A stretch of DNA of 54,605 nt from Aquificaceae bacterium (GCA_026981975.1 JALSHV010000024.1:1-54605), one strand, 5' to 3'; counted from the first letter of the stretch, positions 1,256 to 54,468 are shown. A program made the numbers and translations. Notes: generated from the letters alone by a model not told the origin.

Positions 1256-3576
<2,321 letters not shown>

Positions 3577-21241: not shown

Positions 21242-22369
21242 TCACACTGGAATTTCTTTCAGAATGCACCAACCCAAAACACTACCGCTCTGGGTTGTTT
21301 TTCTCGTTTTGTTTGGTGGCTTATTTGATTCGGTTATAACCTTTTGGAAAAACTTCTCGTAGAATTTGGCATCTCCGAGTTTTAGCATTATCATAACTGT
21401 TGTGCTCAAGAATCCCTGATGTTTGCCTACCCTTATAGGAAATTCCTTCTTGGCTAAGGCATTTTCAATTTTTGAAATATCAGGTGGCATTCTGAAGCCT
21501 TTGCTTTCAAAAAACTTAATATCTTCTTTAAGAACTAACTCCGCAAACCTCAGAGCACTCTCGTGCAGAAATTCTTCAGTAAGAAGGTCTATGTGAGGAT
21601 TTCCAGTGGATTTTTTCAGAGCATTTTTTATTGCCTTATCTATATCAATGCTTATTTCAAAAGTGGTGTTGGGTTTGAGAAGCTCATGGGGCTCACTGAA
21701 TCTTCTTCTTGAAGAGCCTAAGATGGTTATTCCATCTATGTATAGAACATCTTCAGGGGGAGCGGATTTTGTATCACTAACAACAACGGCTTTGAAAAGG
21801 TCGTATTTTGCGTCTTTTTTGTCGGGAGAGCGCTCTCTGAATATTAAGTTTTCAACTCTGTTAAATGCCATCTTCCAGACATCTTTTCCCTTTGTAGGAG
21901 GGTTGAAAAGGGAGTTTTTGATTATCCGTGCAACTTTAACCATCAGAGAGTAGTTTTCCTTCTTTAGTTCTTTCCAGATTACTCCGAATAAAAATACCGT
22001 TCTTAAAGCACCTTTCACTTCCGAACCGGGAATATAAACACCTTCCATGTTTTTTATGAAGCTTTTAACGGACTTATATTCACCGTTTTTGAGCTGTGTT
22101 TGTAAAGGTATTCTATACAAAGGCTCTATGCTTATACTTTGTTCCCTGAGAAAGATTCCAAAGTTGCTGTTGTATCCTTTGTGTTTAACATTATCTCTTA
22201 GAGAAAGAAGAATATTTCTTAGTCTTTGTCCGCTATAGTTCTTATTCAGCTCTTTTACTATATGCTCAATCGGATAAATATTCAGTTTACCGCTTTCAAT
22301 AGCATACTCCCAGGGGATTATCTCCTCTCCGTCTCCTATGTGAACGGGTGTAATGTTCTTAATTTTCAT
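21242..22369 (-). CDS. csm5: Type III-A CRISPR RAMP protein Csm5
   Basis: Cap subunit of the Csm effector complex, 375 residues. It has the RAMP-type N-terminus MKIKNITPVHIGDGEEI and the Csm5 motif YIPGSEVKGALRTVFLFG (about 115-132). Csm5 sits at the crRNA 3' end and helps crRNA maturation. The ATG at 22369 is chosen over the upstream frame start because GAGGTGGAG lies just before it. It overlaps csm4 by 11 nt and is last in the operon. Confidence 0.9.
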   Translation of the reverse strand: MKIKNITPVHIGDGEEIIPWEYAIESGKLNIYPIEHIVKELNKNYSGQRLRNILLSLRDNVKHKGYNSNFGIFLREQSISIEPLYRIPLQTQLKNGEYKSVKSFIKNMEGVYIPGSEVKGALRTVFLFGVIWKELKKENYSLMVKVARIIKNSLFNPPTKGKDVWKMAFNRVENLIFRERSPDKKDAKYDLFKAVVVSDTKSAPPEDVLYIDGITILGSSRRRFSEPHELLKPNTTFEISIDIDKAIKNALKKSTGNPHIDLLTEEFLHESALRFAELVLKEDIKFFESKGFRMPPDISKIENALAKKEFPIRVGKHQGFLSTTVMIMLKLGDAKFYEKFFQKVITESNKPPNKTRKTTQSGSVLGWCILKEIPV

Positions 22370-23309
22370 AGCTCCACCTCGTAAAAAGGGGAAATGCATA
22401 GCCGTAATGATATATGGCTTTGTTCGTTTCTCTGTTAAACAGAGCTTTTTTTATACCACCGAAAAAGGGTTTGGAGCTCTCCGTTGTTATGAGGGAGCCT
22501 TTTGATATAAAAAGTGTCTTCCTTTTCCATATAGCGGGTGATATAACTCCGTAGTAGTTATCAACAGGAGAGACAAAGGGATAAACCTCGTAATAACTCT
22601 TCTCCAGAAGAAAAGAACTATCGTAAAGTGTAGGTGACAAGGTTATGAAATTCCCTCTTTGTTCATTGATGTATTCATCTATCCAGCCATTGTATTTTTC
22701 AAATTCAACCCTGCAGTTTCCCATTCCTGTGCTTTTATTTCCTCCTATCTGAGTGAAGCTGAGTGAGGCTTTAACTTTTTCTTCGTAATTCTCATCAAAG
22801 AACTTGATCAATACTGCAAACTTAACTCCTATGTATGTGCTTTCTTCATTGTAGAGCTGTCCGCCTTCTGTGGTCCATGTTATACGATTAATGCTCGCGT
22901 GTGGCTGAGCAACTCCCATGATTTGAAGTTGATTAAGGTGTTCGTCTTTTACATGATCCCAGAGACTTTTCTCCGTTCTTATTTCTCCCTCAAGGACTTT
23001 CCTTAGGGTTTTCTCGTCAACATAGTTGAGTTTCTTTGCATTTTTCCTCTCTTTATACTCTTCCATAGAAGCTACATCTTTCCAACCTCCCTTTAGTATG
23101 GGTTTGGGAAATAGTATTCCTCCTTTGGAAATTGGCAGGGGTGAAGAGATAATAAATGAAGGATTTTTGGTGAATTCGGACAGCATTTGCTCAAGCTCAC
23201 TCTCACCGTAAAGGACTCTTATTCCCCAGCAAATAGCACCGAATAGGGTAAAGCTCTCGGGGAAAAACCTGAAAGGAGAAAGTGGAGTGAAAACCGCCCT
23301 TATCAGCAT
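22359..23309 (-). CDS. csm4: Type III-A CRISPR RAMP protein Csm4
   Basis: Csm4 binds the 5' tag of the crRNA and contacts Cas10. The 316-residue product begins MLIRAVFTPLSPFRFFPES, has a Csm4-like PLPISKGGILFPKP segment and a glycine-rich loop FTQIGGNKSTGMGNCRVEF near residue 200. A GTG four codons upstream (23321) is an alternative start; the ATG at 23309 overlaps the csm3 stop by 7 nt (ATGCTGA). Context between csm3 and csm5 makes the call firm. Confidence 0.9.
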   Translation of the reverse strand: MLIRAVFTPLSPFRFFPESFTLFGAICWGIRVLYGESELEQMLSEFTKNPSFIISSPLPISKGGILFPKPILKGGWKDVASMEEYKERKNAKKLNYVDEKTLRKVLEGEIRTEKSLWDHVKDEHLNQLQIMGVAQPHASINRITWTTEGGQLYNEESTYIGVKFAVLIKFFDENYEEKVKASLSFTQIGGNKSTGMGNCRVEFEKYNGWIDEYINEQRGNFITLSPTLYDSSFLLEKSYYEVYPFVSPVDNYYGVISPAIWKRKTLFISKGSLITTESSKPFFGGIKKALFNRETNKAIYHYGYAFPLFTRWSYEN

Positions 23310-24130
23310 TTTTTCTTCCACTCCTCAAGTTTTGAAAGCGCCTCTTCCAGTGTTATATCTTCTCCGAGTTTCTCTTCTTGAGCTTTCCCTTTGTAGTAAT
23401 CAGCAGGTCGCCAGATAACGGATATGTTTTTAAATTCTATCCTTCCCGATCCTCTTGAGCCGTAACCTCCAAGGAAGTTATCTTCAAGTTTTCTCATTCC
23501 GTTGAAGATCAGATCAAGTAGCTCTCTGTCCTTTTCCTTGAAGCAGTCAAAGATAATTCTTCCCTCAAACTCTGCTCCGGCGGGAACTCTTTCCACCTTT
23601 CTGGGGTTTGCTCTGGAGGTTATTCTGTTTATCTGGTTCTCCGTCTTTATCTCTGTAAATATTCCTTTGCCCAGCGTATCCTCAAGCTTTTCTAAGGTCT
23701 TCTCGGTGGGGTAGAGGTCAAAGAACTTTGCTCTCGGGGGTCCGGGCTGTTCTTTTCCTTCCTTTGCAAGTCTTTCGTAAGTTTTGGCGTCCCCCGTTCC
23801 GAAAACTATACAAACTTCACATTCTCCGCAATCGCAAGGCTTGCCCGCTTTTTCAATGTCCCCATTTGCTCTGCCATACATTACTTCCACTCTTCCGTAA
23901 ACCCACTCAAGGAGACTTCTCATCTTTCCCTTGATGGAAGAGCCGGGAATGTAGGGAGCTCCTTTCGGGACAGGCTTGTTTTCTCCGTAGTAATCGGGAA
24001 TTTCAACGGGCACTTTCATAACTGGATTATCTGTTCCGCCGATATCAAACTCTTCTTTTGAGCCTCCTACCCTCAGTCCTGTCAAGGCTCTGAGGCGATA
24101 CTCAATTATAAAGCTTCCTTTATATCTCAT
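23303..24130 (-). CDS. csm3: Type III-A CRISPR backbone RNase Csm3
   Basis: Helical backbone RAMP subunit, 275 residues, that cuts target RNA every 6 nt. The segment FDIGGTDNPVMK (about 28-39) contains the catalytic Asp conserved in Csm3. YIPGSSIKGKMRSLLEW is the usual RNA-binding helix region; CDCGECEVC offers four cysteines for a zinc site; GGYGSRGSGRIEF is the glycine-rich loop. The SD GGGAGG precedes the ATG. The catalytic Asp is intact, so RNA cleavage, and hence shut-off of cOA synthesis after target cutting, is expected. Confidence 0.95.
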   Translation of the reverse strand: MRYKGSFIIEYRLRALTGLRVGGSKEEFDIGGTDNPVMKVPVEIPDYYGENKPVPKGAPYIPGSSIKGKMRSLLEWVYGRVEVMYGRANGDIEKAGKPCDCGECEVCIVFGTGDAKTYERLAKEGKEQPGPPRAKFFDLYPTEKTLEKLEDTLGKGIFTEIKTENQINRITSRANPRKVERVPAGAEFEGRIIFDCFKEKDRELLDLIFNGMRKLEDNFLGGYGSRGSGRIEFKNISVIWRPADYYKGKAQEEKLGEDITLEEALSKLEEWKKKC

Positions 24131-24142
24131 ACCAAACCTCCC

Positions 24143-24577
24143 TTAGCTTTCCTTTTTCGTATAGGCAACGAGGGCGGTTAGAAATCTGTCCGCCTGTTCA
24201 AAGTTTTCCTTTGTGCTATATCTGTCAAGGTTATCAATAAGGGCGAACATCAGCTCTGTAAATCTTTCGTTAACAACCTTTCTGTTTTTTTGGTATTCAA
24301 GAATCGGATAAAGCATGTAAAGTTTGGTTTTTGTTTCTTCTTGTAGTGATCCTTCTTCTTTTACCCTATCGCAAATGTATTTAAGCTCGGAATACACCTT
24401 CCTGAGCTGAACCCTTGTAATTTTCAACTGCTGTGCTATGGTGGCGGCGTAACCTTTCGGTTTTACAAGTTCGGAAAGAGGCAGATTGCTAATAGGCTTG
24501 GTTTTTAAGGAATTTACAAATTCTCTCAATCTGTCCTGTTCTTGTCTGAAATAGTCTTCCCTATCTCTTGCGTTCAT
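24143..24577 (-). CDS. csm2: Type III-A CRISPR small subunit Csm2
   Basis: All-helical small subunit, 144 residues, that lines the crRNA-target duplex. The conserved Csm2 core is visible as QLKITRVQLRKVYSELKYI and TKTKLYMLYPILEYQKNRK, with the C-terminal FLTALVAYTKK. The SD AAGGAGGT lies 7 nt before the ATG. Basic residues suit RNA contact. It sits between cas10 and csm3 as in standard III-A operons; the small subunit plus csm naming separates this locus from III-B (Cmr). Confidence 0.93.
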   Translation of the reverse strand: MNARDREDYFRQEQDRLREFVNSLKTKPISNLPLSELVKPKGYAATIAQQLKITRVQLRKVYSELKYICDRVKEEGSLQEETKTKLYMLYPILEYQKNRKVVNERFTELMFALIDNLDRYSTKENFEQADRFLTALVAYTKKES

Positions 24578-24620: not shown

Positions 24621-27050
24621 TCATCTGACATTCCTCGTTTTCATCAGGATATACTTGGCTAAAAACAATGCCCTGTTTCTGACACTGTGATCTTTCGCGG
24701 TGTCAATGAATATGTCCTCAAGGAATCTTCTGTGTTCTTCCTTAACATTCCTGCTCAGGTAATAGTAAAAGAATGGGTAGAACATAAAGCGCTTGTCGTT
24801 TTTTGCATTTTCAAGCTCCCTGTATTCTCTGAGCATAAGGTAGATTCTGTAGAAGTTTGTTCTTCCGAGTTCACCTTTTCCTATTTTTTCAATAACTTCT
24901 TCCGCTTCCTTAAATGAACCCTCTAGTTCATTCCATCTCAGGACTTCATCAAGGGCGCAGATGCTATCTTTACCTTCACTGTTCTTTGCCTTGTCTTCCG
25001 CCCTTTTTACTCCTTCGTAGGCAAGTCTCACGGGATATGTGCCCCCCGCGGTGTAAACACCGCAGGAAAGCCCGAAAGAGGGATTATGACAGGTAAAGTC
25101 TCTGAAATGCTTTCTTACATCGGTCATTGCTTTTAGTGCGGTGTCCCAAGGAGAAACTATGAAGAGATCATCTCCTCCCGCGTAGAGTGTGTAAATCTTA
25201 CCCTTATACTGAGTTTTGCCGAATAGCCTGTTAAGGTATCCCGAAAAGAAGAGGTCAAGGCTTCTGCTGAGTGTTGCAACCCGGGATATTGTGTAGTTCT
25301 TTCCCAAACCTCTCATGAATATAAAACCGAGGTTGTCCACATCCGCCATCACGAAGGCAAGCTTTTTGTCCCCCTCCTCAATCTCCTCAGCCATCTCTTC
25401 AAAGCTCTTTACGCCTTCTTTATCTTCCGGCACCACATTTGCCAGAAATCTAAAACCTACAGCAAAACTGTCCTTCTCAAAATCCTCTGGTCTGTTTATC
25501 AGATAGACTTCCGAAGATGGAAAGGGAGCTTTTACTTTATCAGTAAGATAAATCCCGCCTATCCTATCAAGATAAAAACCTCCCGATATTCCCTTTTCAA
25601 GCTTTTCCTTTGAAAAAATCACATACCTTGACTTTACCACTGCATCTCCAAAGACTTTAAAATCTTCACAGATCTGACATGTGATTTCTTCTTCTTCCGT
25701 TTCTCTTATAAGCTCGTTCCTGCAGGAAGGGCATATTCTTGTATTTCCGTCCAATTGTTTGTTTGCCAGGCTTTCAAAGTTTTCAATGGTGAGTGCAAAC
25801 TTGCGCTTTTTTTCCTCAACGCTTTTATCCATAAGGCTTTTGACAATTTCTGCATAGTTTTCAAGCTCTGATAACTTAAAGTCCTGAGAGTAAACCACAA
25901 AACCGAGCTTACCTCCGAATGTTCTGATAAGGACTTCTTCCACCTTTCTTGATAGATTCTTAAGCTTTTTGTGGATTCCATCTTCATAGCCGATAACAGC
26001 CTGAAACTTACCGCCTCCTGCATAGAGTATGTTTATCCACGGATAGCCGAGTTTTTCCAGAATAAACCTTCCCACAAGCTCCGGCAGGAAACTCATAAAT
26101 ACGCTTCTTCCCCTGAGTCTTTTTGCTACTCCTTTGATGTTGGTAATGTCGTATAAAAACTTCTGTATTCCGCTTATATCTCCTTCAAAGATGACAAGTC
26201 TTAATTTCTCCGCAAATTCCCTTCTTCTTGAATCTCTGAACTCTTCAAGAATCTTTAAGTTCTGTTCTGAATACAGGGAGCTTGCCAAGGCGGAGACTAC
26301 CCTTGAGTGGTCAAAAAGGGAAATATCCGGATAGTGGGAGTGATACTTTTCCCTGTCATATATAGAAGCGGGAACGCACCAGGTGTATTTATATAGCAGG
26401 TGATAGACAAAATTGAGAACTTGACTCTCTGCTGTATGTTTTTTATTGAAAAGATAATATTTGAAATCTCTGTAAAGATCTTCATACCTGCCGTATAGCT
26501 CTCCGTAAAGTTCCGATTCCTTATCGCTGACATATTCCCTGACTTCCTCCACGGATTGGGGAAATATTAAGGGATAACCGTCACTACCTTCCTCCAGAGT
26601 CAGGGGGACTAATTTGTATATAAATTCTCCTTCTGATGTGCCTTTTCCTGCATCAACTTTCTGGAAAACAGGCTTTAATCTTTTAAAATGCTCTTCGCTT
26701 TCCTTATCAAGGAGACTGCTCCTTTCAACTGATGCATACCAATCCGCCAGTCTAAAAAGTGCTCTGACGGGAAAGAGTTTTTCGTCTGCTTCCGGGTGCT
26801 TGGTATCCGGCTTGTGGTGGAAGCATGCGGAGAGTATCAGTTTTTGGTCTTCTTCCTTAAAGATACTTGCTCTTTTGAGGAATTCTTCTGTCAGCTCGTA
26901 ACTTAGTTCCGCATGGGCATACTCAAAGAATTCTTTTTGTCTTGATTTTTTCCCTTCCGCCCTCTGGACAAACTTGCCGATGTCGTGGAGTAAGCCTCCG
27001 AGGGATATAAACTCCCTATTTTTCAAAGGATTAACTCCCCCTGCTCTCAT
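24621..27050 (-). CDS. cas10: Cas10/Csm1, cyclic oligoadenylate synthase and ssDNase
   Basis: Large subunit of the type III-A complex. The HD nuclease motif is intact (GGLLHDIGKFVQ, HD at 22-23; CFHHKPD further on). A zinc finger CPSCRNE...CQICEDF sits mid-protein. The second Palm domain carries LYAGGDDLFIV with GGDD at about 625-628, so cyclic oligoadenylate synthesis from ATP is expected. Start is uncertain: the ATG at 27050 has only TATAAT 4 nt upstream, while a TTG at 27026 (MKNREFISLGG) has GGGGGAG at good SD distance. First gene of csm1-2-3-4-5. Confidence 0.97.
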   Translation of the reverse strand: MRAGGVNPLKNREFISLGGLLHDIGKFVQRAEGKKSRQKEFFEYAHAELSYELTEEFLKRASIFKEEDQKLILSACFHHKPDTKHPEADEKLFPVRALFRLADWYASVERSSLLDKESEEHFKRLKPVFQKVDAGKGTSEGEFIYKLVPLTLEEGSDGYPLIFPQSVEEVREYVSDKESELYGELYGRYEDLYRDFKYYLFNKKHTAESQVLNFVYHLLYKYTWCVPASIYDREKYHSHYPDISLFDHSRVVSALASSLYSEQNLKILEEFRDSRRREFAEKLRLVIFEGDISGIQKFLYDITNIKGVAKRLRGRSVFMSFLPELVGRFILEKLGYPWINILYAGGGKFQAVIGYEDGIHKKLKNLSRKVEEVLIRTFGGKLGFVVYSQDFKLSELENYAEIVKSLMDKSVEEKKRKFALTIENFESLANKQLDGNTRICPSCRNELIRETEEEEITCQICEDFKVFGDAVVKSRYVIFSKEKLEKGISGGFYLDRIGGIYLTDKVKAPFPSSEVYLINRPEDFEKDSFAVGFRFLANVVPEDKEGVKSFEEMAEEIEEGDKKLAFVMADVDNLGFIFMRGLGKNYTISRVATLSRSLDLFFSGYLNRLFGKTQYKGKIYTLYAGGDDLFIVSPWDTALKAMTDVRKHFRDFTCHNPSFGLSCGVYTAGGTYPVRLAYEGVKRAEDKAKNSEGKDSICALDEVLRWNELEGSFKEAEEVIEKIGKGELGRTNFYRIYLMLREYRELENAKNDKRFMFYPFFYYYLSRNVKEEHRRFLEDIFIDTAKDHSVRNRALFLAKYILMKTRNVR

Positions 27051-48161: not shown

Positions 48162-48938
48162 TTGGATCTGAAAACTCTCCTTACCAAACTGTATAACAAT
48201 ACACTAAAAGATCACGAATACAAGAAACTTATAGAAGAACTTATAAAAATGTTTATAAAAGTATCCAACAGTTTTAAAACCCCTCTCCTTGAAAAAATAG
48301 CGAAGTTAAGATGCTGGCAAAAAAAAGATGTATATGAAGATGTAGTAAAGGACTTTATAGTTATACTTCTAAAAAACAGAAAAAGGTTTGAAAAGATGTT
48401 AAAGGCATCTGAACAAGAATTAAGAGCCTATATAAAGCGGAGTATAGGAAATTATCTCGTTGATATGTCAAGAAAAAAATTACACTACTATTTAATTGAG
48501 TCTGGGTTATTCAAAGAAAACCAAGAAGAAGCACCAAACAGACCTATTGACACATTAGGAAAACATAAAGAAGAGGATTCTTTAAACAATAAGGTAGAAG
48601 AAGAGATTTTACACAAGATAGAGGTTAATTGTGTAAGAGATATATTTTTTGAAGTTATAAATGAGGAAGAAATCAAGTATTTCTGCTACAGACTGGATTC
48701 TAAGCGTTATAAATGTCTCTGGGGAAATAAGTCAAGAGATGCCATGTATCAAGATGTGAAAAGAAAATCAAACAGCACCTACAGTAAGTTTTTAAAGGCA
48801 ATAAAAGAGAACGACATTTCCGAAGATGCGGTAAGGGAATTTATCAGAATTTACATGTCAAAAATATGTGAGGATCTTCGTTTAAAAATATGTAAAGAGG
48901 TGAATAAAGAAGATGAATATACTGAAGGAAATACTTGA
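48162..48938 (+). CDS. calpS: CalpS-like ECF-type sigma factor
   Basis: A 258-residue protein. Its middle (about 55-105) reads YEDVVKDFIVILLKN and RAYIKRSIGNYLVDMSRKK, the sigma region 2 pattern of ECF factors; the C-terminal part (NKSRDAMYQDVKRKSNSTYS) may be a diverged region 4. In Sulfurihydrogenibium the CalpS sigma factor is held by CalpT and released when CalpL cuts CalpT. The start is TTG with AAGGAGG 7 nt upstream, and no in-frame ATG fits better. First of five genes; overlaps the next by 26 nt. Identity rests on pattern plus gene order. Confidence 0.78.
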   Translation: MDLKTLLTKLYNNTLKDHEYKKLIEELIKMFIKVSNSFKTPLLEKIAKLRCWQKKDVYEDVVKDFIVILLKNRKRFEKMLKASEQELRAYIKRSIGNYLVDMSRKKLHYYLIESGLFKENQEEAPNRPIDTLGKHKEEDSLNNKVEEEILHKIEVNCVRDIFFEVINEEEIKYFCYRLDSKRYKCLWGNKSRDAMYQDVKRKSNSTYSKFLKAIKENDISEDAVREFIRIYMSKICEDLRLKICKEVNKEDEYTEGNT

Positions 48939-49758
48939 ACTATACAAAGGCTTGCTGTATATGAATACAGATATAGAAGAGAAAGATAGGGTGAATATTG
49001 AAAATATATCCCTCCCCCCCTTTCCTTCCGTAGAACCGGAAGAGGTGGAAGAGGTAAAAACTCCTTCCGAAGGAGATGTAATTGAAATATTCCCCTCTTT
49101 TGATAACATAGAAATGATCTTCTTAGTTTTAAAAGTAAAGAGAGAGTATTACAAACTCATACCCCTTTCAAGGTTTTGGGAAATGGCTACACACAAAGAT
49201 GTTCTTATAAGGGTAAAGGATAAAACCTACATAGCTCAAACGGATCTTACCTTATCCTTACCGAAGGATAGATTAGAAAGGATTTCAAAACTAAGAACCC
49301 TGTTCAAAATAGGAGAAATAGAAAAAGAAATGCTATCAAGGATAAGGAGGGTGGAAGAAGGTAAAGAGAAAGGAGACGGCAAAATAGGCGGAGGTCCTAA
49401 AAAAGAGTTTAAAGAACTGGAAGCGAAAAGATATACTTCCTTATTCCAGACTGAGGAAAACATAAAAATTTTAAAATCTCTTAAAGAAGATTACCTCAGT
49501 CTTGCAGCCTCTTTAAAAGAGAAAAACTGGGGAGAGAAGGAAGAAGTAAGGTGGTTTTACGATGAAGAAGAGGAAACCCTTGTAGTTTTACCGGAAGAAA
49601 AACTCATAGGCAAGCTTAAGAAGATAGTTATTGAACACAAAGAAGGTGAAATAATACTCTTTGCGGGCAAACTGCCCCCCAAGGTTGAAATACCCTTAAG
49701 TAAAGATCTTTACAGCTTCAAAGCAATGGAAGAACGCCTAAGGGTTAAAGATGTTTGA
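48913..49758 (+). CDS. calpT: CalpT-like MazF-homologous partner and protease substrate
   Basis: A 281-residue protein. After a charged N-terminus, GDVIEIFPSFDNIEMIFLVL and later LIRVKDKTYIAQTDLTLSL (about 54-117) fit a MazF/PemK-like beta barrel. A Lys/Glu-rich linker with GDGKIGGGPKKEF (about 154-166) follows, then a helical and a beta C-terminal part. In the characterised system CalpT bridges CalpL and the sigma factor and is cut once by CalpL; an Ala-Ala-Ser at 198-200 lies near the expected cut region but is only a candidate. It overlaps both neighbours (26 and 8 nt), implying fixed stoichiometry. Confidence 0.78.
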   Translation: MNILKEILELYKGLLYMNTDIEEKDRVNIENISLPPFPSVEPEEVEEVKTPSEGDVIEIFPSFDNIEMIFLVLKVKREYYKLIPLSRFWEMATHKDVLIRVKDKTYIAQTDLTLSLPKDRLERISKLRTLFKIGEIEKEMLSRIRRVEEGKEKGDGKIGGGPKKEFKELEAKRYTSLFQTEENIKILKSLKEDYLSLAASLKEKNWGEKEEVRWFYDEEEETLVVLPEEKLIGKLKKIVIEHKEGEIILFAGKLPPKVEIPLSKDLYSFKAMEERLRVKDV

Positions 49759-51460
49759 AAGACTCTCCCATAATCAGAAGCTCGGACTTATAAAGAGTTT
49801 CCTAAGAAACTTATCTTATGTGACAAAAAGGGAAATTAAAGAATTGATTTCCGTATTTCCTTTTGAGGTGTTTGAAGACATAGAAAACATAAACTTCTGG
49901 GCAGTAAAGCTATTCCTTAAAAAAGCAGATTTGGTTAATATAAACACCCTTTCGGAAAAATTAAATACAAGCCCTGATGTATTAAAAGATCTCTTTGAAA
50001 AAGAACAGGTAGAGGTTAACTTTCCCGTATCCGACGGCATAAATGCGGTTATGATAAAGGCGCTCGTTATCCCCCTTGAAAAAGAAATAGTTGTATCGCC
50101 TGATCCAGTTGATACTTCCGTATTTGAACCCCTGATCAAGTTAACAAAAAAAGGCATGTTTATTACCTTCAGCAGAGGCTTTGACTTCAAGTCCAAGTCC
50201 TTTCTGTTGGCTATATATTCAGCAGTTAGCTTTGGAAAACAGATAGAAAACATAGCCTTTACAGGCATAGTCTCCGAAGAGGGAAACATAGAAGAAGTTG
50301 AACACCTTGACAGAAAAATTGAAATAGCGAAGGAACAAAAAATACCACTCCTCTACCCCCATAAGTGCTTAAAAAATGTGAAAGATCTTAAGGAATTCTT
50401 AGAAGATCTCAAAATACCTATAGCGGTGATCCCCCAAAAGGATACTTACCCCTTTGAGAACATGTTTCCTTTCAGTTCAGATTACATAAGATCCGTCTTT
50501 CACATAGATAAAAACCTTTTCTGGACGGAGAAGTTTGAAGAAAACATCAAAAGCTTTAACCACTTTTCAATGTGGGCTGAAGAAATGATAAACAAAGTTA
50601 AAGAAATAAGGGAAAAATATATACCCGCAAAGGTTTCCATAACTTCAAGTATTCTGTGCATGTCTTTCTACTTAGGCGTATTAACCTCAAAGGCAAAACT
50701 CCCCGTTGAATTTTACACCTATTCGCCAGAAGAGGCTACTTACAAAAAGATCTTTGATTTGAAAAGCGATATTTTCGGAGATGATACCGCAAAAGATTTA
50801 ATAAACATTCAGGAACCGGAAAAGGACATTAAAGAAATATATATTTCCTCAAAATCGGGAAAACAGGAGAAAAGAGAAATCTTATTTATATCCACCCTTT
50901 CGGGTAAGGAGCTTGACAAAAATGTTTTAAAAGTAGCTCAGAGTATAGCAAGGGAAATAAGAAAAAGGAATTTTGAATGTGCAAAACTAATACTTGAGAC
51001 CTCCAATGCCCTCAGCTTTGCCTTGGGATATTACATTGAAGACTACAAGTGTCTACACCTTACCCATAGAACCGGTGATGAATACGCCATAGTATATACA
51101 ATTCAGAAGGAAAGTAAGGGTAATTTATATCTACTGAATGCCTTCTCCATAAATATGCTCTCCGAAGATCACGCCTTAGTGGAATTTAAAAAGATTCCCC
51201 GCAGACAAGCAATAGACATACTGAAAAATAAAGAATTTCTATCATACATATCCCACCCTTCAACCGCACGGATATTGAAAAAACTCATAGGAAAGGAGAT
51301 AGAATACAGAAGGACTCCCTTAAAACTCAAAAGCAAAGACAAAGCAATAGTATTCCAGCTCGGTGTAAGACCGCAAGAAGGTAAAATATTCTCAGAAGGA
51401 GAACTTGAAAAAATAATAGAAGAAGGTAAATACGACTTTTTTCTTGTTAAAGTCTATTAA
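49751..51460 (+). CDS. calpL: CalpL-like Lon-SAVED protease fused to a Crn2/AcrIII-1 ring nuclease domain
   Basis: A 569-residue fusion. Residues 1-90 are helical. Residues about 95-230 are Lon-like: S148 (FKSKS) and K189 (HLDRKIEIA) are 41 apart, the same spacing as the S152/K193 pair reported for CalpL, and IAFTGIVSEEGNIEEV matches the Lon TGE loop. Residues about 255-455 fit SAVED (SFYLGVLTSKAKLPVEFY; ALSFALGYYIEDYKC). Residues 458-569 match the SIRV1 AcrIII-1/Crn2 family: LYLLNAFSINML, YISHPSTARIL with the catalytic His502 and QLGVRPQEGK with Arg540 and Glu543. cA4 would bind SAVED, activate cleavage of CalpT, and be destroyed by the fused domain. No TM segment seen. Confidence 0.85.
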   Translation: MFERLSHNQKLGLIKSFLRNLSYVTKREIKELISVFPFEVFEDIENINFWAVKLFLKKADLVNINTLSEKLNTSPDVLKDLFEKEQVEVNFPVSDGINAVMIKALVIPLEKEIVVSPDPVDTSVFEPLIKLTKKGMFITFSRGFDFKSKSFLLAIYSAVSFGKQIENIAFTGIVSEEGNIEEVEHLDRKIEIAKEQKIPLLYPHKCLKNVKDLKEFLEDLKIPIAVIPQKDTYPFENMFPFSSDYIRSVFHIDKNLFWTEKFEENIKSFNHFSMWAEEMINKVKEIREKYIPAKVSITSSILCMSFYLGVLTSKAKLPVEFYTYSPEEATYKKIFDLKSDIFGDDTAKDLINIQEPEKDIKEIYISSKSGKQEKREILFISTLSGKELDKNVLKVAQSIAREIRKRNFECAKLILETSNALSFALGYYIEDYKCLHLTHRTGDEYAIVYTIQKESKGNLYLLNAFSINMLSEDHALVEFKKIPRRQAIDILKNKEFLSYISHPSTARILKKLIGKEIEYRRTPLKLKSKDKAIVFQLGVRPQEGKIFSEGELEKIIEEGKYDFFLVKVY

Positions 51461-51475
51461 GGGGAGGTATTTAAA

Positions 51476-52630
51476 ATGACTACACTGATAAGCTTCATAG
51501 GCAAAGCAAGAGAAAATAAGGCAGAGGGAAGAAGATATTTAAAAACAAAGTATAAATTCCCCGACGGCAAATCTCTTGAAACTACATTTTTCGGATCAGC
51601 CCTCGCCAACTGGCTGAAAGAGGATATAGACAATGCCCTGTTCATAGGCACAACAGGTTCAACATGGAGCGAACTCATTGAACTCCTTAAAGAAGAAGAA
51701 CAGGAAGATCTTTTTGAAATAGCGGATAACCTGGATAGATCTCAGGAAAATTTGGAAGAGCTACTAAGAGAATTCGGCGAAAAACTCTCGGAAAAACTAC
51801 ACTACAATGTTTTTCTAATTCCTGTGAGCAACAGCCCGCAAAATGCGGAAGAAATAAAAGACAGAATTCTCAATGTATTCCACAGCTTTGAAAGAATACC
51901 GGAAAAAGTTATATTTGACATAACCCACGCCTACAGATACATGCCTTATGTGGCTTTACTTACTTTAATACCACTACGCTACTTAGGTATTAAGGATATA
52001 AATATTTACTACGGTTTCTTAGAATTCAACGATCAAGGGGAGGGGAAACCCGTTATAGAACTGAAAATACTGAAAGAATTAATAGAGCTTACGGAAAACT
52101 TAAGTATATTTCACAATACAGGAAACTTTTCCGAACTCAGCTCCATACTCTTTAAAGATCACAAAGACCTTTTCAATAGAACTTACTTCAAAATTGAAAT
52201 AAATCAAAGACCGCGAAAGGACATAAAAAGTATATCCGAACTTCCCACGCAGGACCTCTTTTCCGAACAGCTACTCAAAGAAATAAAATCCTTCAACGAA
52301 GAAAAGAAACTTGAAGACAGATTCGTAAAAAGGGCAAAGTTCTTCTTTGAAAGGAGGCAGTATTTAAAAACAATAACCCTGCTCAACGAAGCCATACTAA
52401 AGAAAGGCGGAAAAGATAAATGGGAAGATCTAATTGATTCCCTTCAGGATCAAAGCCTTGTTGAAACATTTCAAAAATTCAAAAAATTGAGAAATGCAGT
52501 TGTCCATGGTAATGATCAAATCTCAGGACAATACGCAGGTTATGTAAAAGAAGTCCTTGAAAGCGAAGAAAAATTTAAATCATTTATAGCGGAAGTGTTT
52601 AAAGCTTACGAAAAGTTGGAAGTGAAGTAA
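51476..52630 (+). CDS. CARF-HEPN ribonuclease, TIGR02221 (Csx1/Csx2) type
   Basis: A 384-residue CRISPR-associated effector. The N-terminal CARF domain starts TLISFIGKARENKAEGRRYL and has FPDGKSLETTFFGSALA and VIFDITHAYRYMPYVALL, signatures of the TIGR02221 group. The C-terminal HEPN domain has RNAVVHGND with R339 and H344 (Rx4H), so RNase activity is expected. cOA binding to CARF would trigger collateral RNA cleavage. SD GGGGAGG precedes the ATG. It lies 15 bp after calpL and 1 bp before the membrane CARF gene. Confidence 0.9.
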   Translation: MTTLISFIGKARENKAEGRRYLKTKYKFPDGKSLETTFFGSALANWLKEDIDNALFIGTTGSTWSELIELLKEEEQEDLFEIADNLDRSQENLEELLREFGEKLSEKLHYNVFLIPVSNSPQNAEEIKDRILNVFHSFERIPEKVIFDITHAYRYMPYVALLTLIPLRYLGIKDINIYYGFLEFNDQGEGKPVIELKILKELIELTENLSIFHNTGNFSELSSILFKDHKDLFNRTYFKIEINQRPRKDIKSISELPTQDLFSEQLLKEIKSFNEEKKLEDRFVKRAKFFFERRQYLKTITLLNEAILKKGGKDKWEDLIDSLQDQSLVETFQKFKKLRNAVVHGNDQISGQYAGYVKEVLESEEKFKSFIAEVFKAYEKLEVK

Positions 52631-52631
52631 G

Positions 52632-53387
52632 GTGGATATACATACAAGAAAAACCTTAAGGAAATTAATAGGCGAACTGACTACAATAAAGAGTCTGTCA
52701 ATCTTTGTATTAGTAACCATAATCCTTGCATGGCTTCCCGACGGTATAGCACAGCTCATTTCAGGGCATTATAAAAAAGCCTTCATTCAGCTGGGTGTAT
52801 CCGTATTAATACTTTCCTTCTTAGTATTTCTTGCAAGAAGATATGCGGTTACAGAATTAAAATATAAAATTGATACCGCAAAAGATAAACATTTTAAAGT
52901 AATCATTGTCTTTTTGAGTAAAGACAATCCGGATATCTATAGAAATATTAACACCTTAGAGGATTTTAAAAACAAAAAATTAAGCTGGGAAATGCCTTTA
53001 AGGGCTATAAAAGAACACGAAGAAACTGTTGAAAGGGTTATCATAATACCATCAAGGGAAAGTGATACTCAGTTTGATGCGTTTAAAGAACTGATTTCAA
53101 ATATATTAAAAGATAAAATTAACCTAAAAATTCAAAAACACAACCCTGTTGATTTTGAAAATATAGAACAGATCCACGAAACTATTGAAAATATATACAA
53201 AAAACTGAAAAACGAGGGCTACAGGGAAAGGGATATAGTCGTTGACATCACGGGAGGGCAAAAACCTGTCAGTATTGCAGGCGCAGCTTCAACCGTAATT
53301 TATCCAGATAGATACTTTCAATATGTAAGCACAAAAACAAAGGAAGTAAAAGTTTACAATATGGACATTTTTGAGATAAAAGATTGA
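52632..53387 (+). CDS. Two-TM membrane protein with CARF-like domain
   Basis: A 251-residue protein: two adjacent membrane helices (about 24-44, VLVTIILAWLPDGIAQLI; about 50-70, FIQLGVSVLILSFLVFLARR), then a cytoplasmic CARF-like Rossmann domain with HFKVIIVFLSKDN, ERVIIIPSRES and the ligand motif VVDITGGQKPVSIAGAA (D205-K211 region). Known membrane CARF effectors such as Cam1 depolarise cells on cOA binding; this one has a different, two-helix layout. It starts with GTG one base after the upstream stop, so translation is coupled. Nuclease motifs are absent. Confidence 0.75.
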   Translation: MDIHTRKTLRKLIGELTTIKSLSIFVLVTIILAWLPDGIAQLISGHYKKAFIQLGVSVLILSFLVFLARRYAVTELKYKIDTAKDKHFKVIIVFLSKDNPDIYRNINTLEDFKNKKLSWEMPLRAIKEHEETVERVIIIPSRESDTQFDAFKELISNILKDKINLKIQKHNPVDFENIEQIHETIENIYKKLKNEGYRERDIVVDITGGQKPVSIAGAASTVIYPDRYFQYVSTKTKEVKVYNMDIFEIKD

Positions 53388-53400
53388 ACAGGTTAAAGGT

Positions 53401-54468
53401 TTACTTTAATTTAATACTTATATCATCTTCTCTGTATCCGAAAATTAATAAAATTTCCTTTGAAATTCTGACTATTTGATTGGCATTAAGATTAGTTTCA
53501 ACAAAAATGTCCGTATTTCTTATTTTTTCAGGTGATCTTAATTCGTTGGGATTTCTTGTAAAATACGGTCTCTTTTTACCTGTCAAGTTAAGTATCTTGC
53601 CGAATTGATTTTTATGAGCGGCATACATAAGTTCACATATTTTAATCAACATTTCTTTCCACGAACGCACATAGTATTTTTCACCTTTAAATGTGAATGA
53701 TTCTATTGATCTCCCTGTATAGTTACCAAATACATTAATAGAAATATTTTTCGGCAATACCCGCTCGGTAGGTTGTATTTCCTTTTTTGAACTTTTTAAA
53801 ACTTCCCAATTTTCCATTAGAAATTTCCTAACTATTTCATAATCTGGCTTATAACCGCACAATCTTTCCACTGTATAAGCTAAGAGCTCAACTAAAAGCT
53901 CATCAGGTTCTGTCATTATTTTTTCCCATGCTTTGGGAAGTGTGTCTTTAATTAAATACCGCTTTTGTATGCTTCTATATATTTTTTCAGCATTTTCTAT
54001 AGCTTTATCAGAGGCTACATTTTCTTTTGATAAAAACTCTTCAAATTTTTCCACAATATCCTCCGTTTTTTGATCATACAGTTCAATGGTATAAAATTTT
54101 CGCTGTTCCCAGTTACCCTCATACAACGGTAAATAGAACCACCAACTTATTCCATTTGTTAGTATCGCAAGTTTAACTCCCTCCTCAAAGGAATATTTCA
54201 AAAGCTGTTCTTGATGCTTTTCTAAATCTTCACCGATTTTTTTTACTTCAATAAAGACCTTGTTTTTATCGTTATACCTTAGAGCATAATCAACCCTTTT
54301 ATTTCCAACAGAATATTCAGGATAAATCTCATCTATATTAAATGGATCCCAGCCCAAGCAACTTAATATCCTCATAATGACAGCTTGCTTAGTAGCAGCT
54401 TCATCAAAAGAAAATATTCTCTTGTCCCTTTTAAAATTGTTTATTAATATCGCAAGCTCCTCATTCAT
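53401..54468 (-). CDS. Stand-alone HsdR_N-type PD-(D/E)xK nuclease domain protein
   Basis: A 355-residue protein. Residues 1-140 match the N-terminal nuclease domain of type I restriction HsdR subunits: KRVDYALRYNDKNKVFIEVK provides D60, E74 and K76 of the PD-(D/E)xK site, followed by GVKLAILTNGISWWFYLP. The remaining 200 residues lack helicase motifs and include SWKEMLIKICELMYAAHKNQ, a domain seen in other stand-alone nucleases of unknown role. It is convergent with the CRISPR effector operon (13-bp gap). It may be a defence nuclease or part of a restriction or retro-element locus beyond the edge. Confidence 0.78.
   Translation of the reverse strand: MNEELAILINNFKRDKRIFSFDEAATKQAVIMRILSCLGWDPFNIDEIYPEYSVGNKRVDYALRYNDKNKVFIEVKKIGEDLEKHQEQLLKYSFEEGVKLAILTNGISWWFYLPLYEGNWEQRKFYTIELYDQKTEDIVEKFEEFLSKENVASDKAIENAEKIYRSIQKRYLIKDTLPKAWEKIMTEPDELLVELLAYTVERLCGYKPDYEIVRKFLMENWEVLKSSKKEIQPTERVLPKNISINVFGNYTGRSIESFTFKGEKYYVRSWKEMLIKICELMYAAHKNQFGKILNLTGKKRPYFTRNPNELRSPEKIRNTDIFVETNLNANQIVRISKEILLIFGYREDDISIKLK

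Follow-up and report, generated by a model that had tools for sequence, protein, structure and literature searches.

How does a type III CRISPR protease that carries a viral-type ring nuclease at its own C-terminus end the signal to which it responds? This question is raised by a gene within 54,605 nucleotides of Aquificaceae DNA (hereafter the window, meaning the whole stretch analysed), in which a Lon-SAVED protease of the CalpL type runs on into a domain of the Crn2/AcrIII-1 type. An earlier note on this DNA had proposed that the SAVED domain senses cA4 and that Crn2 adds a timer to it. Our analysis bears out the fusion, its domains and the Crn2 active site, but the proposed mechanism proves incomplete, because the ring-nuclease residues of the SAVED domain have been lost. 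On the sequence evidence presented below, we consider it likely that the fusion is a CalpL-type effector of a type III-A system in which the fused Crn2 domain has taken over destruction of the messenger from the SAVED domain.

The fused protein and its operon

The features considered in this study are collected in Table 1. The reading frame of the fusion contains no internal stop codon, and no in-frame ATG, GTG or TTG is found between codons 436 and 468, so that the Crn2 part could not be started separately just upstream of its first strand, NAFSINML. Residues 5-227 match SsCalpL of Sulfurihydrogenibium sp. YO3AOP1 in a phmmer search of the PDB (7qda, E 2.1e-11), and the PADLOC CRISPR-Lon and SAVED_LON models match the N-terminal part with E values of 1e-29 to 1e-38; phmmer of the SAVED region gave no useful match in the PDB. 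As judged from these alignments, residues 1-450 are a divergent CalpL. The S150/K189 pair aligns with S152/K193 of SsCalpL and is identical in all nine fused and all 29 canonical Aquificota proteins compared, indicating that the Ser/Lys dyad is invariant in the fused family and placing the nucleophile at S150 rather than at S148, as had been suggested earlier.

Pfam PF08960 (STIV_B116-like/DUF1874) matches residues 459-555 with an E value of 2.4e-19 (69.8 bits against a cut-off of 26), which is the sole DUF1874 match in a profile search of the genome. Searched alone, the C-terminal 110 or so residues match the same family with an E value of 1.5e-20, far better than the PADLOC Csx16 model (E 5e-8), and Crn2 is therefore preferred to Csx16. 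Residues 451-566 match SIRV1 gp29/AcrIII-1 in the PDB (phmmer; 2x4i, E 1.9e-16; 6scf, E 1.6e-15), with E values ranging from 1e-15 to 1e-17 across searches. S466, H502, R540 and E543 are equivalent to S11, H47, R85 and E88 of gp29, the last three just as the earlier note had assigned them. At nine positions of gp29 that belong to the active site of AcrIII-1, N8, S11, N13, H47, T50, R66, Q81, R85 and E88, the ten fused domains all have the same residue as gp29. Crn2 is also the best-conserved domain of the fused family, with a mean pairwise identity of 54% compared with 39-47% elsewhere. These conserved residues support the view that the Crn2 active site is intact.

An AlphaFold2 model, computed from an input alignment of nine relatives, has a mean pLDDT of 89.3 and a pTM of 0.77, with the lowest confidence at residues 341-350 and within 451-480, the junction between SAVED and Crn2. 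A Foldseek search of the PDB with this model returns 7qda first (E 1.9e-23 over 511 aligned columns). Next come the filaments of CCaCalpL (9eyi), then AcrIII-1 (6scf, with E 3.6e-9 and, by target length, a TM-score of about 0.8), AcrIII-2, a viral ring nuclease of the SAVED type (9r8s, E 9.7e-8), and Csx1-Crn2 (8y7g). Thus, both the profile and the structure comparison agree with the earlier claim that a CalpL homologue continues into Crn2/AcrIII-1 as one unbroken protein. That two adjacent genes were joined here by a frameshift or a misassembly can be practically discounted: no supporting evidence was found, the frame has no internal start or stop, and the identical junction occurs in independent assemblies of eight more full-length homologues, which share 35-42% identity with the window protein.

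Table 1. Coordinates of the features discussed, in the window or, where a locus is named, in related fused loci
Feature	Position	Strand	Remarks
CalpS-like ECF sigma factor gene	48162..48938	+	258 aa, TTG start; TIGR02937 E 0.01, TIGR02985 E 0.002 (weak sigma-70)
CalpT-like anti-sigma factor/protease substrate	48913..49758	+	281 aa; PADLOC CRISPR-T E 0.0012
CalpL-Crn2 fusion	49751..51460	+	569 aa, ATG start; unbroken ORF, phmmer, Pfam, PADLOC, AlphaFold2, Foldseek
N-terminal helical domain, residues 1-86	49751..50008	+	AlphaFold2 helices 7-83; alignable with SsCalpL
Lon-like protease domain, residues 87-235	50009..50455	+	Catalytic dyad S150 (50198-50200) and K189 (50315-50317)
Diverged SAVED domain, residues 236-452	50456..51106	+	Without known SAVED ring-nuclease residues; Foldseek matches CalpL, AcrIII-2 (9r8s)
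Crn2/AcrIII-1 (DUF1874) ring nuclease domain, residues 457-569	51119..51457	+	phmmer, Pfam, Foldseek, active-site alignment
Crn2 residues S466; H502; R521; R540; E543	51146-51148; 51254-51256; 51311-51313; 51368-51370; 51377-51379
Csx1-type CARF-HEPN ribonuclease	51476..52630	+	TIGR02221 E 5.5e-33; PADLOC CARF2-CARF_HEPN E 9.5e-74; RNAVVH HEPN motif by reading
Membrane-anchored CARF protein (CARF8-TM, Cam1-like)	52632..53387	+	PADLOC TM+CARF E 1.2e-46
Cas10/Csm1 of type III-A complex	24621..27050	-	TIGR02578 E 1.6e-166; HD (HDIGK) and GGDD by reading
csm5, csm4, csm3, csm2	21242..24577	-	NCBIfam TIGR01899, TIGR01903, TIGR02582, TIGR01870, all above cut-off
166-174 aa protein	L050:290-796, L052:3509-4015, L053:7102-7626, L054:5941-6456
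166-174 aa protein, further loci	L056:5738-6238, L059:2200-2715, L060:2293-2799

The CalpT gene of the window overlaps both of its neighbours, CalpS and the fusion gene. Genes for CalpS and CalpT lie directly upstream of the fusion in every fused locus with upstream sequence, the CalpS homologues with phmmer E values of 1e-20 to 1e-37 and the CalpT homologues with 1e-29 to 1e-73; phmmer of CalpT against the PDB gave no useful match. Downstream, 15 bases separate the fusion stop from the Csx1 gene and a single base separates the latter from the CARF-TM gene, all in one operon. The window also holds Cas10/Csm1 together with csm2-5, hence a type III-A system, on the opposite strand and 21 kb from the fusion. 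This intact-looking Cas10 is the sole Csm1 match in the genome and is likely to be the source of the cyclic messenger. No CRISPR array was found in the window. Among other ring nucleases, Csx3/Crn3 had no match in a genome search in which the positive control was also silent, and Crn1 had only a match below cut-off, inside the CARF-TM gene. An odd pairing occurs at 53401-54468 on the minus strand, where an N-terminus resembling type I restriction HSDR_N/PD-(D/E)XK is followed by a SeqA C-terminal domain (E 8.8e-7).

The SAVED domain of the fused family

It has been established that the SAVED domain of an ordinary CalpL is itself a ring nuclease, which cuts cA4 and so limits its own protease (PMC11417357); self-limitation as such is therefore not what the fusion adds. 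Cleavage of cA4 by SsCalpL is severely impaired in the mutants H392A, R361E, K364E and K366E; of these, R361E also abolishes cA4-induced oligomerisation, and a further mutant, H345A, binds cA4 less well (PMC11417357). We compared SAVED residues, in SsCalpL numbering, between the nine fused and the 29 canonical Aquificota proteins. The canonical proteins keep H345, R361 and K364 (as K or R) without exception, and H392 and S451 in 27 of 29 each. In the fused proteins, H345, K364, H392 and S451 are each absent from all nine, the S391-H392 pair being lost throughout, and R361 is kept in seven; the window protein has lost R361 as well, so that it lacks H345, R361, K364 and H392 altogether. The fused proteins have about 20 residues fewer between 380 and 451 (53-65 versus 71-86 in the canonical proteins), and the AlphaFold2 model lacks a helix between strands 362-366 and 377-382. 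The alignment near H392 is uncertain in detail, as MAFFT and hhalign pair the residues and the gap differently; neither of them places a conserved histidine at the H392 position of the fused family. H251 and H439 are invariant in the fused family, and either could in principle act in catalysis.

These alignments indicate that the intrinsic ring-nuclease site of SAVED is gone in the fused family, and that the fused proteins form a divergent sister clade of canonical CalpL rather than being typical members of it. The SAVED domain nevertheless appears to be still under selection, since T298, G309, K314, Y322, Y331, D340, L413, F423, A424, G426, Y427, E430, D431, Y432 and H439 are strictly kept. 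Because the lost residues also serve cA4 binding or stacking in SsCalpL, activation by cA4 through this domain is not assured.

A related change is seen in two canonical CalpLs, L034 and L039, where the SAVED histidine motif AHH or ASH has become APS; their source genomes, G058 and G061, also carry a CalpL-Crn2 fusion. The two are sister sequences, and the other 27 canonical proteins keep H392. This loss fits relaxed selection, but it counts as one evolutionary event.

Distribution and descent in the Aquificota

The earlier note had called for a survey of CalpL homologues for the fusion, and a PF08960 search across 136 Aquificota genomes found it in nine, which belong to five genera and two families according to the labels of the search tool. 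The open frame runs to 563-613 codons in eight of them and is cut by a contig end in the ninth (G061). CalpL-Crn2 is an old, conserved family in heat-loving Aquificota. CalpL-type proteins in general are frequent in the phylum: the CRISPR-Lon model matches in 77 of the 136 genomes, although the weakest matches cover short parts of frames some 800 codons long, which probably are housekeeping Lon. In one genome, G014, three CalpL-Crn2 loci are found on contigs C75, C118 and C162, each with CalpS and CalpT; two are full length and one is cut by a contig end, and they may be paralogues or the product of a mixed MAG.

A scan of 84,980 species genomes recovered nine of the known fusion loci, whose record titles name Aquificota, Aquificaceae, Aquificales or Aquifex MAGs, and one stand-alone Crn2; it returned no fusion from another phylum, a negative that is weak and not exhaustive because only two peptide patterns were used. 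No other DUF1874 frame long enough for a CalpL fusion was found among the 391 genomes of relatives, many of which are outside the Aquificota. We also looked for the fusion on mobile elements: the 24 INPHARED records that match cover the DUF1874 part only, PLSDB gave no match, and DUF1874 stands alone in the IMG/VR loci examined. A large ring-nuclease survey of RefSeq-type loci contained only seven Crn2s. Every relative that could be identified by name is a MAG, and the family has perhaps been overlooked for these reasons.

A tree built from 36 CalpL parts unites the nine fused proteins in a single clade, which has 100/100 support and a long stem. A Crn2 tree places the fused domains together with two stand-alone cellular Crn2s of the Aquificota (99/97) and apart from viral AcrIII-1. 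These trees are read most simply as a single fusion that was then inherited by descent, with transfer perhaps playing some part. The stand-alone Crn2 of G108 groups with the fused domain of its own genus and may derive from a fusion. In G005 a stand-alone Crn2 (L058:1371-1718) lies head to head with a Csx1 CARF-HEPN gene (1749-3278), likely an unfused cellular Crn2-Csx1 pair that is related to the fused domains.

The neighbourhoods of the fusion also differ from those of canonical CalpL. The next gene downstream is cas10 in L050, L052, L054, L055 and L057, and NCBIfam identifies it as Csm1 in all three loci tested (L054, L055 and L057); in L054 and L055 it is followed by csm2-5 and a Csx1. The next gene in L051 is cas6, and in L056 a few kilobases separate the fusion from csm4 and csm5 on its upstream side. 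In contrast, all five canonical CalpL loci tested adjoin cmr1 of type III-B systems. In the loci tested, type III-A (csm) genes accompany fused CalpL-Crn2 and type III-B (cmr) genes accompany canonical CalpL. In most fused loci an uncharacterised protein of 166-174 residues is encoded directly upstream of CalpS (Table 1); it is absent from the window, has no Pfam match, gave a weak PADLOC PDC-M11B match in one case, and is possibly a fourth part of the CalpL-Crn2 module.

A proposed off-switch and its alternatives

Several features of the fusion have precedents in known systems. Like SsCalpL (7qda/8b0r; PMC11417357) and CCaCalpL (9eyi), the fused proteins have N-terminal helices, the Lon Ser/Lys dyad and the SAVED fold, and they share the gene order CalpS-CalpT-CalpL; however, in the known CalpLs SAVED is the last domain and the place of cA4 cleavage, whereas the fused ones end in Crn2 and have lost those SAVED residues. 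Csx1-Crn2 of Marinitoga piezophila (8y7g), described in 2020 as so far a unique case, also bears Crn2 at the C-terminus of an effector, and its H495, equivalent to H47 of gp29 and to H502 here, is required for cA4 cleavage, the effector running to completion when it is mutated (PMC7293037). That effector is a cA4-activated CARF-HEPN ribonuclease, whereas the N-terminal part here is a Lon-SAVED protease with an anti-sigma factor as its expected target, and CalpL-Crn2 is found in five genera. AcrIII-1 itself shares the fold and all nine of the active-site positions checked, but is stand-alone and mostly viral. The earlier note rightly knew of Csx1-Crn2 but missed further fusions in which a ring nuclease, Crn4, is C-terminal on a CARF or SAVED effector, namely Csm6-2 and TIR-SAVED (PMC12830947); the ring-nuclease fold is unrelated in these, and the effector is other than Lon-SAVED. 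CARF models combined with CSX16, CSX20 and CSX3 also exist in PADLOC. AcrIII-2 from TGBSV, a virus of Aquificota, has a SAVED domain related to that of CalpL, but keeps its catalytic residues and has neither Lon nor Crn2 (PMC12751052). Fusions of effectors with ring nucleases are therefore already known, but the pairing of CalpL with Crn2 is new within the literature searched: our search, which was of limited extent, found no description of it, in agreement with the earlier note.

We propose that, upon infection, Cas10 would make cA4 and that this would switch on the Lon domain, with the diverged SAVED domain as the most likely route; the activated protease would cut CalpT and thereby free the sigma factor CalpS. 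Crn2, probably dimeric as in AcrIII-1, would cleave cA4 to linear A2>P, and its removal would end the activation of the fusion as well as of the Csx1 and CARF-TM effectors of the same operon. The switch that turns the alarm on and the one that turns it off would then probably reside in a single protein. The presence on the same contig of a Cas10 of the Csm type, bearing HD and GGDD motifs, and the intact CalpS-CalpT-CalpL-Crn2-Csx1-CARF(TM) operon are consistent with this proposal, and the 21 kb between Cas10 and the fusion count against it. Crn2 is a cA4 enzyme, and the Csx1 and CARF-TM families of the neighbouring effectors are known to respond to cA4; the messenger is for this reason presumed to be cA4 and not cA3 or cA6. 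On this proposal the fusion would work as a timer.

If the SAVED domain worked fully, with both cA4 sensing and its own ring nuclease, Crn2 would be a fast timer added to it, as the earlier note had it. Such an additive arrangement has the precedent of Csx1-Crn2 (PMC7293037), and the CalpL fold is indeed kept over the whole Foldseek alignment, but the absence of H392 and K364 from every fused protein and of R361 from the window protein makes it very unlikely. The loss of the SAVED ring-nuclease site instead favours replacement, and Crn2 most likely takes the place of a dismantled intrinsic off-switch rather than providing a second one.

The same losses could be read to mean that SAVED no longer senses cA4 at all. 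Crn2 would then both sense and destroy the messenger, as a domesticated dimeriser of viral type, with the old SAVED domain serving as a scaffold or re-aimed at another ligand, which we regard as unlikely. In a narrower form, SAVED would be only a scaffold, and cA4 held in a Crn2 dimer would join at least two Lon domains until cleavage ended their activity; we rate this form, the main rival to the reading that we prefer, as rather unlikely. Most of the residues named in the literature for the SAVED cA4 site are lost, including H345, needed for tight binding, and the bottom-face lysine (PMC11417357), Crn2 is the most conserved domain, and the Crn2 of Csx1-Crn2 binds cA4 tightly, at about 20 nM (PMC7293037). 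However, the SAVED half keeps a conserved motif (FALGY-LEDY, K314, H439) that suggests a retained function, and the Crn2 of Csx1-Crn2 does not activate its effector. We know of no DUF1874 domain that acts as a sensor. Another reading holds that SAVED has changed its ligand, to another cyclic nucleotide or to linear A4>P or A2>P, and that Crn2 clears cA4 mainly for Csx1 and CARF-TM. New conserved residues (E430, D431, K314, D340) do replace the old ones, and two more CARF effectors come next in the window operon, but a single activator tends to serve all effectors of a given type III locus (PMC11229360) and in several fused loci no further effector gene separates the fusion from cas10, so that this reading appears most improbable. 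We therefore prefer the transfer of messenger destruction from SAVED to Crn2.

With the protease/sigma-factor branch, Csx1 and the CARF-TM effector in one operon, a single timer is likely to be shared among them. In known CalpLs, cA4 activation and destruction are coupled at one site, and the fusion, which offers the single-residue pair H502A and S150A, would allow one to ask whether they can be uncoupled. CalpL-Crn2 is a conserved family and not a single oddity. The fusion resembles an off-switch that has been relocated inside one signalling protein, since the SAVED ring nuclease appears to be dismantled exactly in the clade that gained Crn2, and this coincidence provides natural evidence that limitation of cA4 has been selected for in the transcriptional response controlled by CalpL.
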